Shown here: piece by piece, positions 9,177 to 64,000 of the stretch
How positions within the stretch are numbered: position 1 is the stretch's first letter
Layout of the letters: each line of letters begins with the position of its first letter
Assembly (NCBI GenBank): GCA_002377695.1
Contig: DFQH01000001.1
Span: 699,563 to 763,562 of the forward strand
Length of the DNA: 64,000 nucleotides
Origin: Citromicrobium sp. UBA3494
Lineage (GTDB): Bacteria > Pseudomonadota > Alphaproteobacteria > Sphingomonadales > Sphingomonadaceae
Direction of reading: 5' to 3'
Notes under the pieces: model-generated
Seen by the model: the letters and a program-made list of their open reading frames with translations, nothing else
What the model was told of the DNA's origin: nothing
Database searches by the model: none
Made by a program: the position numbers and the translations under genes

Positions 9177-10286
9177 ATGACTCCGGACCTCAGTTGTGGC
9201 ATTGGTGCCCCTCGAAGGGATGAAGTTATCGCAAGTTCGCAAATAGATGCCCGGCCCGAGAGGATCTGGGACCTAGCGCCCGACCTGTTCGGCATTCTCG
9301 ACGATACCGGGATCTTTCAGCATACCAATCCGGCATGGCGTACGGTCTTGGGGTGGACGCCCGAAGAGGTGGAAAGCCGCAGGTTTACGGATTTGCTGCA
9401 CCCCGACGATATGGAAGCGTCGATCGCGGCCTTCGAAGAGATGCAAGGCGGCAAGCCGGCGCTCCATTTCGAGAACAGGTTTCGCCACAAGGACGGAAGC
9501 TACGTCTGGCTGTCGTGGAACGCGATTCCGGATGGCGGCATCTATTATTGCACCGCGCGCAACATCGAGACCGACAAGCAGAACAAATCCTCGCTCGACA
9601 CAAGTCGCGAGCAGGCGCAGCTTCGCGAACAGTTCATCGCGGTGCTCGGCCACGATCTGCGCAATCCGCTCGCGGCGCTGCGCGCCGGCGTGAGGATGCT
9701 GGAGCGCGAGGAGCTCAGCGATCGCGGAACGGTCATTATCGCGGAGAGCGAAAAGTCCATCAAGCGCATGTTCGACATGATCGACGATCTGATGGACTTC
9801 GCACGATCCCGGCTCGGAAGCGGGCTCTCGCTCGACATCGAAGAGAGCGCCGATCTTGGGGGAACGCTGGCAGACGTCCTGCAAGAGATCGCGGTTGCCC
9901 ATCCCGAAGCGCGGTTCCAACCCGACATCGCAATCGACAATCCGGTTCGCTGCGACAAGGGCAGGATCAGTCAGCTTACCTCCAACCTGCTGGCCAATGC
10001 CGTCACTCACGGCGATGCCAATGCGCCGGTGACGCTCCGCGCGCGCGGCGGCGGGGACTATCTGGAAATCTGCGTCGGCAATGCGGGTGAACCTATCCCC
10101 GATGCGGTTCGCAAAGGTCTGTTCGAACCTTTCGTGAGGGAAGAAGCCCGACCCTCGCAGGAAGGACTGGGGCTGGGGCTCTTCATATCGTCCGAGATCG
10201 CCAAAGCGCATGGCGGGACGCTCTGCGTCAAGTCGGACACCGATGGGACGTATTTCACCTTCTCGATGGGACAGGCACAGGGCTGA
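9177..10286 (+). CDS. PAS-domain sensor histidine kinase
   Basis: A 369-residue soluble kinase with one PAS domain (about residues 33-135, LFGILDDTGIFQHTNPAWR, FRHKDGSYVWLSWNA), a HisKA dimerisation domain with the phospho-acceptor His in VLGHDLRNPLAALRAG (about 158-173), and an HATPase domain with N-box TSNLLANAVTHGD and G-box EGLGLGLFISSEI. It has no receiver or DNA-binding domain, and no response regulator lies nearby. The start ATG 9177 lacks a good Shine-Dalgarno. It is flanked by imperfect direct copies of the DUF1489 gene start (9054 and 10327), which suggests insertion or duplication at this site. Base composition looks slightly less GC-rich than its neighbours by eye. Confidence 0.9.
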   Translation: MTPDLSCGIGAPRRDEVIASSQIDARPERIWDLAPDLFGILDDTGIFQHTNPAWRTVLGWTPEEVESRRFTDLLHPDDMEASIAAFEEMQGGKPALHFENRFRHKDGSYVWLSWNAIPDGGIYYCTARNIETDKQNKSSLDTSREQAQLREQFIAVLGHDLRNPLAALRAGVRMLEREELSDRGTVIIAESEKSIKRMFDMIDDLMDFARSRLGSGLSLDIEESADLGGTLADVLQEIAVAHPEARFQPDIAIDNPVRCDKGRISQLTSNLLANAVTHGDANAPVTLRARGGGDYLEICVGNAGEPIPDAVRKGLFEPFVREEARPSQEGLGLGLFISSEIAKAHGGTLCVKSDTDGTYFTFSMGQAQG

Positions 10287-10341
10287 CCGCCGTTCACGCA
10301 CCCGGCTTGCCCCGCCCCTATCCCGCACCTACCTCGTCCCC

Positions 10342-10731
10342 ATGCCGCTCAACCTGACCAAGATCGCGTTCGGCGCGCAGAGCTTTGCCGACCTCGAAAG
10401 CTGGTACGCGAACCGGCGCAGCCCCAACCTCACCACCCGCTATCGCCCCACGCGGTGGGAGGAGTGCATCGGCGGCTCGCTGTTCTGGATTCACCAGCAC
10501 AACCTGGTCGCGCGCAGCGAAATCCTGGGTTTCAGCGAGACCGACAACGGCCGCTGGTCGATCGATCTCGAACCGCGGCTGATCCCGGTCTATCCGCAGC
10601 CCAAGCGCGCGCACCAGGGCTGGCGCTACCTCAAGGGCGAGCCGCCGCGCGACCTTGGCGAGGGCGAGGAAGTGGGCGACGTGCTGCCGGGCGCGCTCGC
10701 CACCAGGCTGCAGAAGCTGGGGCTGATCTGA
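10342..10731 (+). CDS. DUF1489 family protein
   Basis: A 129-residue protein of the alphaproteobacterial family DUF1489, function unknown. Recognisable conserved parts are MPLNLTKIAFG at the start, TTRYRPTRWEE, GGSLFWIHQHNLVARSEILGF and PKRAHQGWRYL. It has no signal peptide or membrane segment. ATG 10342 was chosen because this is where the family begins; the in-frame extension to 10210 reads back into the kinase gene. A truncated second copy of its first 25 codons lies at 9069. Confidence 0.85.
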   Translation: MPLNLTKIAFGAQSFADLESWYANRRSPNLTTRYRPTRWEECIGGSLFWIHQHNLVARSEILGFSETDNGRWSIDLEPRLIPVYPQPKRAHQGWRYLKGEPPRDLGEGEEVGDVLPGALATRLQKLGLI

Positions 10732-29796: not shown

Positions 29797-30735
29797 CTAG
29801 TAGCCGAGCGCAAGGTCCATCTGCGGCTGCACGGGTTCGCCCGCGTGCCATTTGTGCAGATTCTCGATGAAGCGGTCGGCGGACCGCATGAACATGCCCG
29901 TCTGCGCGCGGCCCGACAGGTGCATGGTGACCTGCGCATTGGCGAGCGACCAGAGCGGGTGGTCTTCGGGCAGCGGTTCGGGATCGGTCACGTCGAGCAA
30001 GGCTGCCTCGATGCTCTTCGCTTCAAGGGCATCGACCAGCGCGGGCTGATCCACCACATCGCCGCGCGCAACGTTCACCAGCACGGCATTGCCCTTCATC
30101 GCCGCGAGCTCGTCCGCACCGATCATGTGATGCGTGTCGGGGGTGGAGGGCACCGCCAGCACCACCCAGTCGAATTCGCCCAGCCTACCGCGCCACTCGT
30201 CGGGCTTCAAAGCACCATCCGCACCCGAGCGGCGCACCGGCACGACCTCCATGTCGAAGGCTTCGAGCCGGGTCTTCACAAGTCTGCCGATTGCGCCGAG
30301 ACCCAGCAGCAGCACGCGTTCGCCCGCCAGCTCGCGCTTGCCGGGGCTGTCGAGTAGCCACTCATGCCGGTCCTGCGCGCGCACCACCTCGCGGTAGCCC
30401 TTGGCATGGGCCAGCATCAGCATGACGACATATTCGGCGATGGTGATCGCGTTGATGCCTGCGCCGTTGGTCACGATCGTCCCGCGCTCGTCCAGCAGAT
30501 CGAGCGGCAGGAAATCGAGCCCGGCATAGATCGAGTTGAGCCATTTGAGGTTGGTCGCGGCGGCCACCACCTCGCACATCGGGCCGGGCTGGTTGAAGTC
30601 GAACCAGCCGATCTCCGCACGCGGCGCCAGCTCCAGCGCCTCCTCCTTGCTCATGAACCACAGCGGCTCGACCCAGTCGGGAAGGCGTGGCTCGACCAGC
30701 GGGCGGATCAGGGTGGAAAGAACGGCGGTGGTCAT
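29797..30735 (-). CDS. D-isomer-specific 2-hydroxyacid dehydrogenase family protein
   Basis: A 312-residue cytosolic dehydrogenase of the D-2-hydroxyacid family, which reduces 2-keto acids with NAD(P)H. The nucleotide-binding loop is LLLGLGAIGRLVKTR, and the family parts TNGAGINAITIAEYVVMLML and VLVNVARGDVVDQPALVDAL are visible. The usual catalytic Arg lies in that second stretch; the terminal His motif appears shifted (NAQVTMHLSGRAQTG). The ATG 30735 overlaps the DUF559 stop codon (ATGA). Its Shine-Dalgarno GGGAGGGG is provided by one arm of the inverted repeat at 30741. The substrate is unknown. Confidence 0.88.
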   Translation of the reverse strand: MTTAVLSTLIRPLVEPRLPDWVEPLWFMSKEEALELAPRAEIGWFDFNQPGPMCEVVAAATNLKWLNSIYAGLDFLPLDLLDERGTIVTNGAGINAITIAEYVVMLMLAHAKGYREVVRAQDRHEWLLDSPGKRELAGERVLLLGLGAIGRLVKTRLEAFDMEVVPVRRSGADGALKPDEWRGRLGEFDWVVLAVPSTPDTHHMIGADELAAMKGNAVLVNVARGDVVDQPALVDALEAKSIEAALLDVTDPEPLPEDHPLWSLANAQVTMHLSGRAQTGMFMRSADRFIENLHKWHAGEPVQPQMDLALGY

Positions 30736-31118
30736 TCACTCCCCTCCCGCTTGCGGGAGGGGCCGGGGGTGGGCTCTTCTTGGAGCGCTGCGCAGATGGT
30801 CTCGATCACACCCTCTGTGTTGGCGATTACATCGGCATTTGAAAAGTGCAGAACGCGATATCCTTCGGCTCGCAGATACACATCGCGGGCTTCGTCGCGT
30901 TCGGGCAGCACATCGTGCGAATGGCCGTCGACCTCGACGATCAGCTTGCGCGAGCGACACAGGAAATCGGCGAAGAACGGCCCGACCGGCATCTGGCGGC
31001 TAAATTTCACGCCGAGCTACGACTTGGCGAGATGCTTCCACAACTCGCGTTCCGCGGGTGTGGCGGCATTGCGCAACTCGCGGGCGCGCTTGGTGTCGCG
31101 GTTGGTCCAGGTCGGCAC
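30732..31118 (-). pseudogene. DUF559 endonuclease-like gene broken by an amber codon
   Basis: Read from GTG 31118 this frame encodes a 128-residue DUF559 protein (VSR/restriction-like endonuclease fold) except for a TAG at 31017-31019. The part before the stop is TKRARELRNAATPAERELWK then HLAKS; the part after is LGVKFSRQMPVG, then FFADFLCRSRKLIVEVDGHS with the conserved catalytic-type Asp of VDG. The family consensus continues through the stop without a frame change, so one base change (for example CAG to TAG) explains it. The last residues (PTPGPSRKREG) are encoded by the left repeat arm. The stop overlaps the start of the dehydrogenase at 30735. Confidence 0.8.
30741..30774. repeat. inverted-repeat arm, left of the DUF559 gene
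   Basis: This 34-base arm starts CCCCTCCCGCTTGCGGGAGG and ends with GGGGTGGGC. Its inverted partner lies at 31131-31164; 30 of the 34 bases match. The arm is itself a hairpin (CCCTCCCGC with GCGGGAGGG). The outer end lies 6 bases from the start codon of the dehydrogenase. Confidence 0.85.
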
Positions 31119-31130
31119 GGGCGTACTTGT

Positions 31131-31164
31131 GCCCACCCCTAACCCATCCCGCAAGCGGGAGGGG
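31131..31164. repeat. inverted-repeat arm, right of the DUF559 gene
   Basis: The inverted partner of the arm at 30741-30774, with four differences over 34 bases. It begins GCCCACCCC and ends CAAGCGGGAGGGG, and lies 6 bases from the cysS stop codon at 31170. Together the arms bracket the DUF559 pseudogene, so the cassette from 30741 to 31164 (424 bases) looks like one unit placed between cysS and the dehydrogenase. Confidence 0.85.
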
Positions 31165-31169
31165 GATTG

Positions 31170-32693
31170 TCAGCCGAGCTTCCATTCCCAGCCGAGCGGG
31201 TCGCCATCCATGACCTCGACCCCCTTGGCGGCGAGATCGTCGCGGATGGCGTCGGATCTGGCGAAGTCCTTCTGTGCCCGTGCATCCTTGCGGTCCGCGA
31301 GGGCCTGCTCGATCTCGTCCTCGGTCAGACCTGCGTCCTTCGGGCGGATGCGCAGGTCTTCGCGAGACAGATTGAGCAGGTCGAGACCGAGGACTGCGTC
31401 CATTGCGGCGATGGAGCTCAGCTTTTGAGCAGGATCGACCTTCTTGATCGTCAGCGCCTCTTCCAACGCGGTAAGGGCAATGGATGTATTGAGGTCGTCG
31501 GCCTGCGCTGCTTCGAACTTTTCGAGGACCGGTGCCAGCTTGCCCCAATCGTCACCCTGAACTTGTTTCAGGGTCCAGCTCCCATCCTGCACAAAGGGCT
31601 CGGGCTGCTCGCTGGATGCCGAAACGAGTTCGGCATGACGGTTTTTGAGCTGTTCGACCCCCATCACCATCCGCTTCAACCGGGTCAGCGCCGCGCCGAG
31701 GCCTTCCCACGAAAACTCCAGCTCGCTGCGGTAATGCCCCTGCAGGCACATCATCCGATACGCGAGCGGATGGTAGCCCTTGTCGATCAGCAATTGCAGC
31801 CGCAGGAACTCGCCCGAGCTTTTCGACATCTTGCCCGTCCGCTCGACGAGGAAGTTGTTGTGCATCCAGTACCGCGCACCGGAATGCGCGGCGTCATCCA
31901 ACCCGCCGCAGCCGCAGTAGGCCTGGTTCTGCGCGATCTCGTTGGGGTGGTGGATTTCGCGGTGGTCGATCCCGCCGGTGTGGATGTCGAACGGGAAGCC
32001 CAGCAGTTTGCCGCCCATCACGCTGCACTCAAGGTGCCAGCCCGGTGCGCCGCGGCCCCACGGCGAATCCCACTCCATCTGCCGCGTCTCGCCTGCGGGC
32101 GTGGTGCGCCAGATCGCGAAGTCGGCGGCGTTGCGCTTGCCCTCGACCGTGTCGATCCGGCCCTCGCCCTCTTCGGTCACGGCGCGAGCCAGCCGCCCGT
32201 AATCCTCGACCGTGGAGACGTCGAAATAGAGCCCGCTCTCAAGCTGGTAGCAGTGCTTCGGCTCGATCTGCTTGGCGAAGTCGATCATCGCGTCGATGTA
32301 ATCGGTTGCGACCGACCATTCGGCGGGCTCCCGGATGTTGAGCGCCTTTACGTCGGCCTTGAAGGCCTGCGTGTAATGCTCGGCAATGTCCCAGATCGAC
32401 TGCTTCTTCTGCGCAGCCATCTTCTCCAGCTTGTCCTCGCCCGCATCCGCGTCGTCGGTCAGGTGGCCGACATCGGTGATGTTGATGATGTGGGTGAGCT
32501 TATGGCCCGTCCAGCTGAGCGTGCGGCCGAGCACGTCGGCGAACACATAGGCGCGCATATTGCCGATATGCGGGTAGTTATAGACCGTCGGCCCGCAGGT
32601 GTAGACGCGCGCCTCCCCCTCGTGGATCGGAACGAAGGGTTCGAGCTGTCGGTTGAGGCTGTTGAACAGGGTGAGTTGCGGCGCATCGGTCAT
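31170..32693 (-). CDS. cysS: cysteine--tRNA ligase with an in-frame palindromic insertion
   Basis: A 507-residue class I synthetase that charges tRNA-Cys. HIGH is seen as PHIGN in VYNYPHIGNMRAYVFAD, the KMSKS loop as GKMSKSSGEF, and the zinc-binding Cys/His residues in CGPTVYN, ECSVMG and HPNEIAQNQ. It is about 30 residues longer than a usual CysS because residues about 352-381 (RHAELVSASS ... TLKQVQGD) are encoded by a palindromic element at 31551-31640. The insertion lies before the anticodon-binding helices (DDLNTSIALTALEEAL) and the frame continues, so the enzyme is probably functional. ATG 32693 is preferred over an upstream extension. Confidence 0.95.
   Translation of the reverse strand: MTDAPQLTLFNSLNRQLEPFVPIHEGEARVYTCGPTVYNYPHIGNMRAYVFADVLGRTLSWTGHKLTHIINITDVGHLTDDADAGEDKLEKMAAQKKQSIWDIAEHYTQAFKADVKALNIREPAEWSVATDYIDAMIDFAKQIEPKHCYQLESGLYFDVSTVEDYGRLARAVTEEGEGRIDTVEGKRNAADFAIWRTTPAGETRQMEWDSPWGRGAPGWHLECSVMGGKLLGFPFDIHTGGIDHREIHHPNEIAQNQAYCGCGGLDDAAHSGARYWMHNNFLVERTGKMSKSSGEFLRLQLLIDKGYHPLAYRMMCLQGHYRSELEFSWEGLGAALTRLKRMVMGVEQLKNRHAELVSASSEQPEPFVQDGSWTLKQVQGDDWGKLAPVLEKFEAAQADDLNTSIALTALEEALTIKKVDPAQKLSSIAAMDAVLGLDLLNLSREDLRIRPKDAGLTEDEIEQALADRKDARAQKDFARSDAIRDDLAAKGVEVMDGDPLGWEWKLG
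31551..31640. repeat. palindromic element inside cysS (GTCACCCTGAA...GGCATGAC type)
   Basis: Exactly 90 bases (30 codons) with two inner inverted repeats: CCTGAACTTGTTTCAGG on one side and ATGCCGAAACGAGTTCGGCAT on the other, and outer ends GTCA/TGAC. The type is repeated in intergenic regions of many alphaproteobacteria. In the cysS reading direction it encodes a peptide containing RHAELVSAS and WTLKQVQGD, the usual translation of this element. Confidence 0.88.
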
Positions 32694-32743
32694 GGGCGCG
32701 CAGATGCGCCAAGCGAACCGGCTGCGCAACAGGGAGCGACCAT

Positions 32744-63918: not shown

Positions 63919-64000
63919 TCCTCCCCCTTGAGGGGGAGGTTGGGTGGGGGTGTGCGGCGCTGACGATAAATGCCGTACACCCACCCCCAGCCCCTCCCTC
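63919..64000. repeat. palindromic repeat cut by the window edge
   Basis: Left part CTCCTCCCCCTTGAGGGGGA is a hairpin, followed by GGTTGGGTGGGGGTGTGC; the far part CACCCACCCCCAGCCCCTC is its approximate inverted copy. The pattern is like the arms around the DUF559 gene at 30741 and 31131. The right arm is incomplete at base 64000. Confidence 0.75.

Follow-up and report, generated by a model that had tools for sequence, protein, structure and literature searches.

The window, the whole stretch of 64,000 nucleotides that was analysed, belongs to the genome referred to here as G000. It contains a small cassette, built of a DUF559 gene and two inverted arms, at the junction between cysS and a 2-hydroxyacid dehydrogenase gene. 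The features are the following, in window coordinates:

29797..30735, minus strand: 2-hydroxyacid dehydrogenase gene (PF02826), the other neighbour of the cassette (ORF and Pfam match)
30732..31118, minus strand: DUF559 (PF04480) nuclease gene with one in-frame TAG (domain match and ORF piece)
30741..30774, plus strand: 3′ arm, downstream of the DUF559 gene; hairpin, CCG, G-rich tail towards the gene
31017..31019, minus strand: in-frame TAG within the DUF559 domain (read from the letters and from the domain search)
31131..31164, minus strand: 5′ arm, upstream of the DUF559 gene; hairpin, TTA, G-rich tail towards the gene
31170..32729, minus strand: cysS (PF01406), neighbour of the cassette and marker of the junction for empty sites
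63920..64000, no strand assigned: pair of inverted palindromes with no gene (63920-63953 and 63978-64000), truncated where the window ends; its arm subtype is related to that of the cassette but distinct

The two arms are 34 nt long each, are spaced 356 nt apart and are complementary at 30 of 34 positions (88%, by inverted-repeat search), which agrees with the 34-base inverted arms that the earlier note had described around the gene. They end 5 bases short of each neighbouring gene, cysS and the dehydrogenase gene, and not 6 bases as had been claimed. The DUF559 gene is oriented from the TTA arm to the CCG arm. Its GTG start at 31118 is our choice, its stop overlaps the start of the dehydrogenase gene and its C-terminal residues are encoded by the 3′ arm, an overlap that had been claimed before and that the ORF coordinates confirm. 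A whole-genome search placed the DUF559 domain at 30783-31097 (112.2 bits, coordinates converted from the contig) with a single in-frame TAG, present both in the letters and in the domain search of the assembly at the position first reported for it. The ORF piece downstream of this codon (30732-31010) matches PF04480 with an E-value of 1.7e-23 and 83 bits, against a gathering cut-off of 20.6. No Rfam family matched the region 30600-31300 up to E 1. The similar arm that had been noticed at 63919 is a real arm with a partner, but it belongs to a different subtype, which makes it a sister repeat rather than another copy of the cassette arm.

The TTA arm and the CCG arm of the window cassette both recur in the relatives G005, G006 and G007. 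The genus of G000 is probably Alteriqipengyuania, as G001, a member of it, carries a DUF559 gene whose sequence and contig coordinate are those of a DUF559 gene in A. abyssalis NZ-12B. CysS was identified in 27 of 60 genomes (E ≤ 1e-100), and the arrangement downstream of it was sorted by reading. The window-type cassette occupies the junction in four of the 27 (G000, G005, G006 and G007), and a different DUF559 gene with different arms is found there in two genomes of other genera (G013 and G024), so that the junction has been filled at least twice. A different paired repeat stands at the junction in five genomes (G001, G002, G003, G004 and G008; loci L053, L064, L065, L062 and L052, respectively). 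In all five it is an inverted pair of the CACCCCGGACTTGATCCGGGGTG kind, which implies that in these cassette-free relatives the site was reused by unrelated repeats. The insert-free junctions that the earlier note had proposed looking for exist in six genomes (G009, G017, G021, G022, G027 and G034), where the dehydrogenase gene begins at most about 15 bases downstream of cysS; the remaining ten have other arrangements or altered synteny. No target-site duplication is evident by eye at the cysS junction, for which the empty sites come from genomes that are not close strains.

Three of the four copies of the window-type cassette are broken, each by a different lesion: the TAG in G000, a TGA in G006 and, in G005, a split between frames that shows as two overlapping partial matches. 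The copy in G007 is intact. The inactivation claimed for the window copy agrees with the stop codon that the assembly shows in its domain, and the G006 and G005 copies are broken as well. The G000 and G007 copies differ at 16 synonymous and 13 non-synonymous codons of the 104 compared (stops skipped), which makes it probable that the gene was under constraint until it broke. In the window's lineage the nuclease gene is decaying and the arms persist. As a separate observation, cysS itself carries an in-frame insert at 31548-31640 (residues 364-394, RHAELVSAS...LKQVQGDD), which is also present in G001 and G008, varied in G027 and missing from the other same-genus genomes examined; it looks like a repeat-encoded peptide within an essential enzyme.

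The arrangement of a DUF559 gene between arms is widespread and is not a product of chance. Loci from named genomes were taken as the best 80 of at least 558 confirmed relatives, which are those closest to the query and not a random draw; their sources are alpha-, beta-, gamma- and deltaproteobacteria, together with records that bear the names Nitrospira, Binatia, Chloroflexi and Dadabacteria in their titles. One of them (L139), whose match was a run of N, was removed. Bracketing inverted arms scoring at least 18 were present at 54 of the 79 loci left from these best 80 of at least 558, and no arms reaching that score were detected at the other 25. For comparison, only 2 of 166 other small genes in the same loci had such arms, in a control search slightly more permissive than that for the DUF559 loci, as did 3 of 3,200 random placements across all 80 loci. 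Both control genes scoring at least 18 were kept, and among the controls with low scores one is another DUF559 gene. The density of arm palindromes is 43.7-fold higher within 300 bp of a DUF559 gene than in the rest of the same loci. In the genus, a search within 600 bp that had no matched control found arms scoring at least 16 on both sides of 21 of the 30 DUF559 loci read, and in the family 22 of the 28 loci read are bracketed in this way. Of the nine arm-less loci in the genus, five form one divergent positional group, and the armed genes occupy several places that are unrelated to one another. Other DUF559 genes, which the earlier note had suggested checking for flanking arms, therefore mostly have them in the genus, the family and the named genomes. 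At a locus of Legionella anisa (L146, ~9860-10460), the DUF559 gene has inverted ends of ~98 bp, longer than those at most loci.

Each arm is made of a hairpin followed by a tail, and the two parts are related in sequence. Of the 172 arms parsed, 144 carry in their tail a perfect mirror of the purine stem (A read as A or T), compared with 67 arms fitted by the unmirrored stem and none by a shuffled tail. When one arm was kept for each distinct asymmetric stem (n=39), the numbers were 28 mirrored, 9 unmirrored and 1 shuffled. Stem and tail thus vary together from lineage to lineage, and this co-variation supports the idea that what is recognised is a conserved shape, with three strands or an alternative pairing, which may form in cells. 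It also bears on the view that the arms are ordinary terminators or regulatory hairpins standing by coincidence on both sides of a small gene. The arms are short, G+C-rich intergenic hairpins and the 3′ arm lies just upstream of the dehydrogenase start, as that view would have it; however, no T-run follows the hairpins (read by eye from the letters), the same kind of arms is nearly absent from the other small genes, and the pairs are matched and inverted, with a mirror-image tail. We consider coincidence highly improbable, close to negligible. A terminator or plain regulatory hairpin is not supported, as both gene-less copies and the co-variation of stem and tail were found.

Arms also occur away from any DUF559 gene. 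The arm palindrome is found at ten places in the 2.9-Mb genome G000 (20 strand matches, two per place, with one mismatch allowed), where the reversed control pattern has no match. Two short inverted pairs in this genome join a TTA arm and a CCG arm in the order of the cassette, and further gene-less TTA/CCG pairs are present in G003 and G006. These pairs look like REPINs or MITEs of the cassette. Across 79 genomes of the family, the number of DUF559 genes correlates with that of palindromes (rho 0.63, against 0.24 for the reversed control pattern, kinship being ignored in both), and the correlation stays at 0.56 after subtraction of two palindromes per gene. Copy number was rejected as proof of a cognate pair, since type-A arms are few, with 0-9 strand matches in each genome of the genus, and G003 has a gene-less TTA/CCG pair and no type-A gene among its three DUF559 hits. 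Two genomes of the set behave differently. G081 contains 102 arm-core palindromes and has no DUF559 match, and may represent either repeats that outlived their nuclease or a counter-example. In G084, also without DUF559, the reversed control pattern has 143 matches versus 18 for the palindrome; the former apparently belong to another repeat family.

The type of arm differs between DUF559 lineages. Mantel tests restricted to loci with arms scoring at least 16 show that the arms are more alike where the proteins are, both in the family (rho 0.49, p 0.001, 46 loci) and among the named genomes (rho 0.21, p 0.003, 56 loci from the best 80 of at least 558). The dispersed palindromes were also compared with the DUF559 flanks of their own and of other genomes, using 400 kb from each of four repeat-rich genomes (G085, G060, G098 and G074) and an unequal number of reference flanks per genome (3 to 7). 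The mean was best for the own flanks in three of the four genomes (25.5, 24.2 and 24.5, others 14.5-19.8); G074 failed, with 16.6 for its own flanks and 14.4-19.6 for those of other genomes. Counted one by one, the palindromes for which the own flanks were strictly best were 18 of 34 in G085, 31 of 73 in G060, 11 of 30 in G098 and 4 of 25 in G074.

The dispersed arms might instead be REPs moved by a Y1/HUH transposase (RAYT), the DUF559 gene being a passenger caught between two of them. A RAYT gene flanked by two inverted REPs is a known case (PMC2817692), and the number of Y1_Tnp (PF01797) genes shows a weak correlation with that of palindromes (rho 0.34, partial 0.31). Nevertheless, Y1_Tnp is absent from G000 and from 65 of the 79 family genomes (present in 14), and among the 26 palindrome-rich genomes (at least 50 palindromes) it occurs in 8, compared with 25 for DUF559. 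The correlation between DUF559 and palindromes persists when only the 65 genomes lacking Y1_Tnp are taken (rho 0.57), and the partial rho for DUF559, the counterpart of the 0.31 for Y1_Tnp, is 0.62. A RAYT as the mover is therefore largely rejected, the weak Y1_Tnp correlation remaining, and we regard the passenger scenario as very unlikely.

The fold of the enzyme, as predicted for a relative (mean pLDDT 80.5), is nearest to 3hrl (E 4.3e-8), followed by I-Bth0305I (E 3.1e-5) and then by mitoribosomal proteins, with Vsr (1vsr) at rank 8 (E 0.013). A search of the PDB by sequence returned the same two leading entries below E 0.05 and nothing else: 3hrl (6.8e-39) and I-Bth0305I (0.0037), the latter listed as a mobile intron protein; weaker matches look like chance. 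I-Bth0305I stands for the EDxHD homing family (PMC3943268). The invariant residues of DUF559 are a D, an ExDG and an H, which by our reading fit the EDxHD motif. YcjD, the DUF559 protein of Escherichia coli K-12, was handled as a member of the PD-(D/E)XK superfamily in a 2005 paper (PMC1189080).

A nuclease of this fold could serve the host. DUF559 would then be a structure-specific or mismatch-repair enzyme, no mover of DNA, whose gene stands beside palindromes made by other means, possibly because it keeps them in check or because a gene is tolerated there. Vsr is among the fold matches, some DUF559 genes have no arms, and the Caulobacter protein VsrA, a Vsr-like DUF559 protein, has been tied to cytosine methylation and the DNA-damage response and proposed for T:G mismatch repair (PMC12907096). 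This explanation is in our opinion unlikely, as it accounts neither for the lineage-specific arm types nor for the gain and loss of a whole cassette at one junction, nor for the two-arm make-up that the gene-less pairs share. The closeness to homing enzymes, on the other hand, might point to strict homing, in which the nuclease cuts the uninserted allele, recombination copies the cassette into it and the arms are merely landing-site or regulatory sequence. I-Bth0305I is the nearest characterised fold besides 3hrl and belongs to the EDxHD family (PMC3943268), and a study of Legionella evolution reports that copies of a repeated segment, which holds a transposase and a DUF559 gene, recombined with each other (PMC12308824). 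Armed DUF559 genes at several unrelated positions in the genus and dispersed gene-less pairs are not, however, what allelic homing alone would produce, and we hold homing as the sole process to be decidedly unlikely.

Judged from their sequence, the cassette arms have the build of the intrastrand-triplex TM/PIT repeats of E. coli. TM elements consist of a C-rich stem, a G-rich stem, a three-base loop and a second G-rich stem. Holder et al. (2015) distinguished those with a TTA loop (type A) from those with a CCG loop (type B) and counted 23 copies in K-12, with five close inverted pairs that always join A and B (PMC4666352). The oligonucleotides form a triplex in the test tube, a stable triplex in vivo being unsupported; the repeats are linked to genome instability, and their loci are described as highly variable by an unclear mechanism, with no mobility genes reported nearby (PMC4666352). 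The exact E. coli motif, CCCTCNCCC N3-6 GGGNGAGGG N3 GGGNGAGGG, has no match in G000. In the phylum it occurs in 56 of 299 genomes, and DUF559 at E ≤ 1e-10 in 80 of 299. The two coincide: strong DUF559 matches are present in 41 of the 56 TM genomes versus 39 of the 243 others (odds ratio 14.3), and matches at E ≤ 1e-3 in 44 of 56 versus 64 of 243 (odds ratio 10.3), kinship being ignored in both comparisons. Fifteen of the 56 TM genomes are without strong DUF559, including some with 121, 36 and 21 strand matches. Among 20 loci chosen mainly from TM-rich genomes, arms scoring at least 16 were present in 12 and absent in 8.

Exact TMs bracket a DUF559 gene twice in G173, once in G330 and once in G267. 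The ycjD branch (K-12, G384 and G274) has a different layout, with TM elements that abut the gene on one side and do not bracket it. In K-12, TM no. 9 in the numbering of PMC4666352 lies 3′ of ycjD beside a degenerate second arm, and G384 and G274, two members of one family, have a TM pair at the ycjD-type place, exact in the former and with 2-3 mismatches in the latter. As a clean empty-site case, E. coli was rejected. The segment comprising ycjD and the TM is at least 80% covered in 3,364 of 5,426 genomes, and in the eight listed genomes with partial cover the fabI side alone was matched, so that there is no simple empty site.

The best-scoring control among the small genes looks, by its translation, like a GxxExxY nuclease. 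A search with PF13366 (GxxExxY) found 13 loci in 12 of the 79 genomes (L353-L365), nine of which are bracketed by inverted arms scoring at least 19 (no matched control). These arms have a purine-repeat make-up without the CTCCC palindrome and belong to a different class from those of DUF559. The location of PF13366 genes within arms of their own suggests that solo PD-(D/E)XK nucleases inside their own arms may be a wider principle.

DUF559 genes are associated with arms, the arms are dispersed, and one site has been occupied repeatedly. We consider it fairly probable that the cassette is a REPIN-like mobile unit in which a nuclease resembling Vsr and homing endonucleases replaces the RAYT, by way of an arm recognition, a cutting step and a copying route that we infer. 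The cassette would be a short mobile palindrome unit in the form that carries a gene, and the gene-less arms its REPIN-like pairs. The nuclease would recognise the arm in its folded or three-stranded state, for example while replication leaves it single-stranded, and would nick or cut this structure. Repair of the break would then copy the unit, either with its gene or as arms alone, to another place between genes, and in the window's lineage one such unit would have landed between cysS and the dehydrogenase gene. The earlier note had guessed at a small mobile unit with DUF559 in a transposase-like role; arms elsewhere and insert-free sites support this guess of a unit that its nuclease would move. 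That first reading missed the lineage-specific arm types, the TM/PIT build and the parallel decay of the local copies. In the open-access literature, no description was found that ties DUF559 to dispersed palindromic repeats; most subscription papers lie outside it, and such a description may exist elsewhere.

On a wider scale, the evidence seems to us evenly balanced as to whether there is a new class of mobile elements, in which solo PD-(D/E)XK nucleases spread pairs of folded arms, with DUF559 serving the TM/PIT repeats and PF13366 acting with unrelated arms. In such a class, which would run on these enzymes in place of transposases, each nuclease would carry two arms, recognise them by their folded three-strand shape and spread both itself and gene-less pairs, and DUF559 would explain the TM/PIT repeats from E. 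coli to alphaproteobacteria. Palindromic repeats of TM build are dispersed in many proteobacterial genomes, and no source was known for their mobility (PMC4666352). Were DUF559 to spread them, a function would be found for an orphan domain family and an engine for the repeats, and a REPIN-like system would have evolved around an unrelated enzyme. Should the nuclease be shown to move arms, this class of enzyme would form a new category beside the known kind of REP plus enzyme. E. coli K-12, with YcjD and 23 TM motifs in one genome, offers a system for testing the idea, and the mirror rule of the arms yields a structural hypothesis open to tests with DNA oligonucleotides.

Several known systems resemble the cassette in part. 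Insertion sequences have terminal inverted repeats and occur in a gene-carrying long form and in gene-less short forms, the MITEs. The cassette likewise has inverted ends and gene-carrying and gene-less forms, but none of the known classes of transposase was found within it. The TM/PIT repeats of E. coli share with the window arms the three-block build, the mirror-image third block and the TTA or CCG loop, and in both cases the inverted pairs join one TTA and one CCG element. The window arms differ in their shorter stems and in their nuclease, the TM paper reporting none for its repeats (PMC4666352). With the EDxHD homing endonucleases and Vsr, DUF559 would have in common the predicted fold of the catalytic domain and the acidic and histidine residues. 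Whereas EDxHD homing enzymes are multi-domain proteins with long target sites (PMC3943268), DUF559 consists of one very small domain and is enclosed by palindromes of its own. As in REPIN/RAYT systems, an enzyme gene stands between two inverted palindromes, related palindromes are dispersed as gene-less pairs, and the lineage of the enzyme tracks the type of repeat. The GT(A/G)G head (GTAG or GTGG) of the RAYT-associated REPs (PMC2817692) is absent at both window arms, and the place of the Y1/HUH transposase is taken by a PD-(D/E)XK-type nuclease of predicted Vsr/EDxHD fold.
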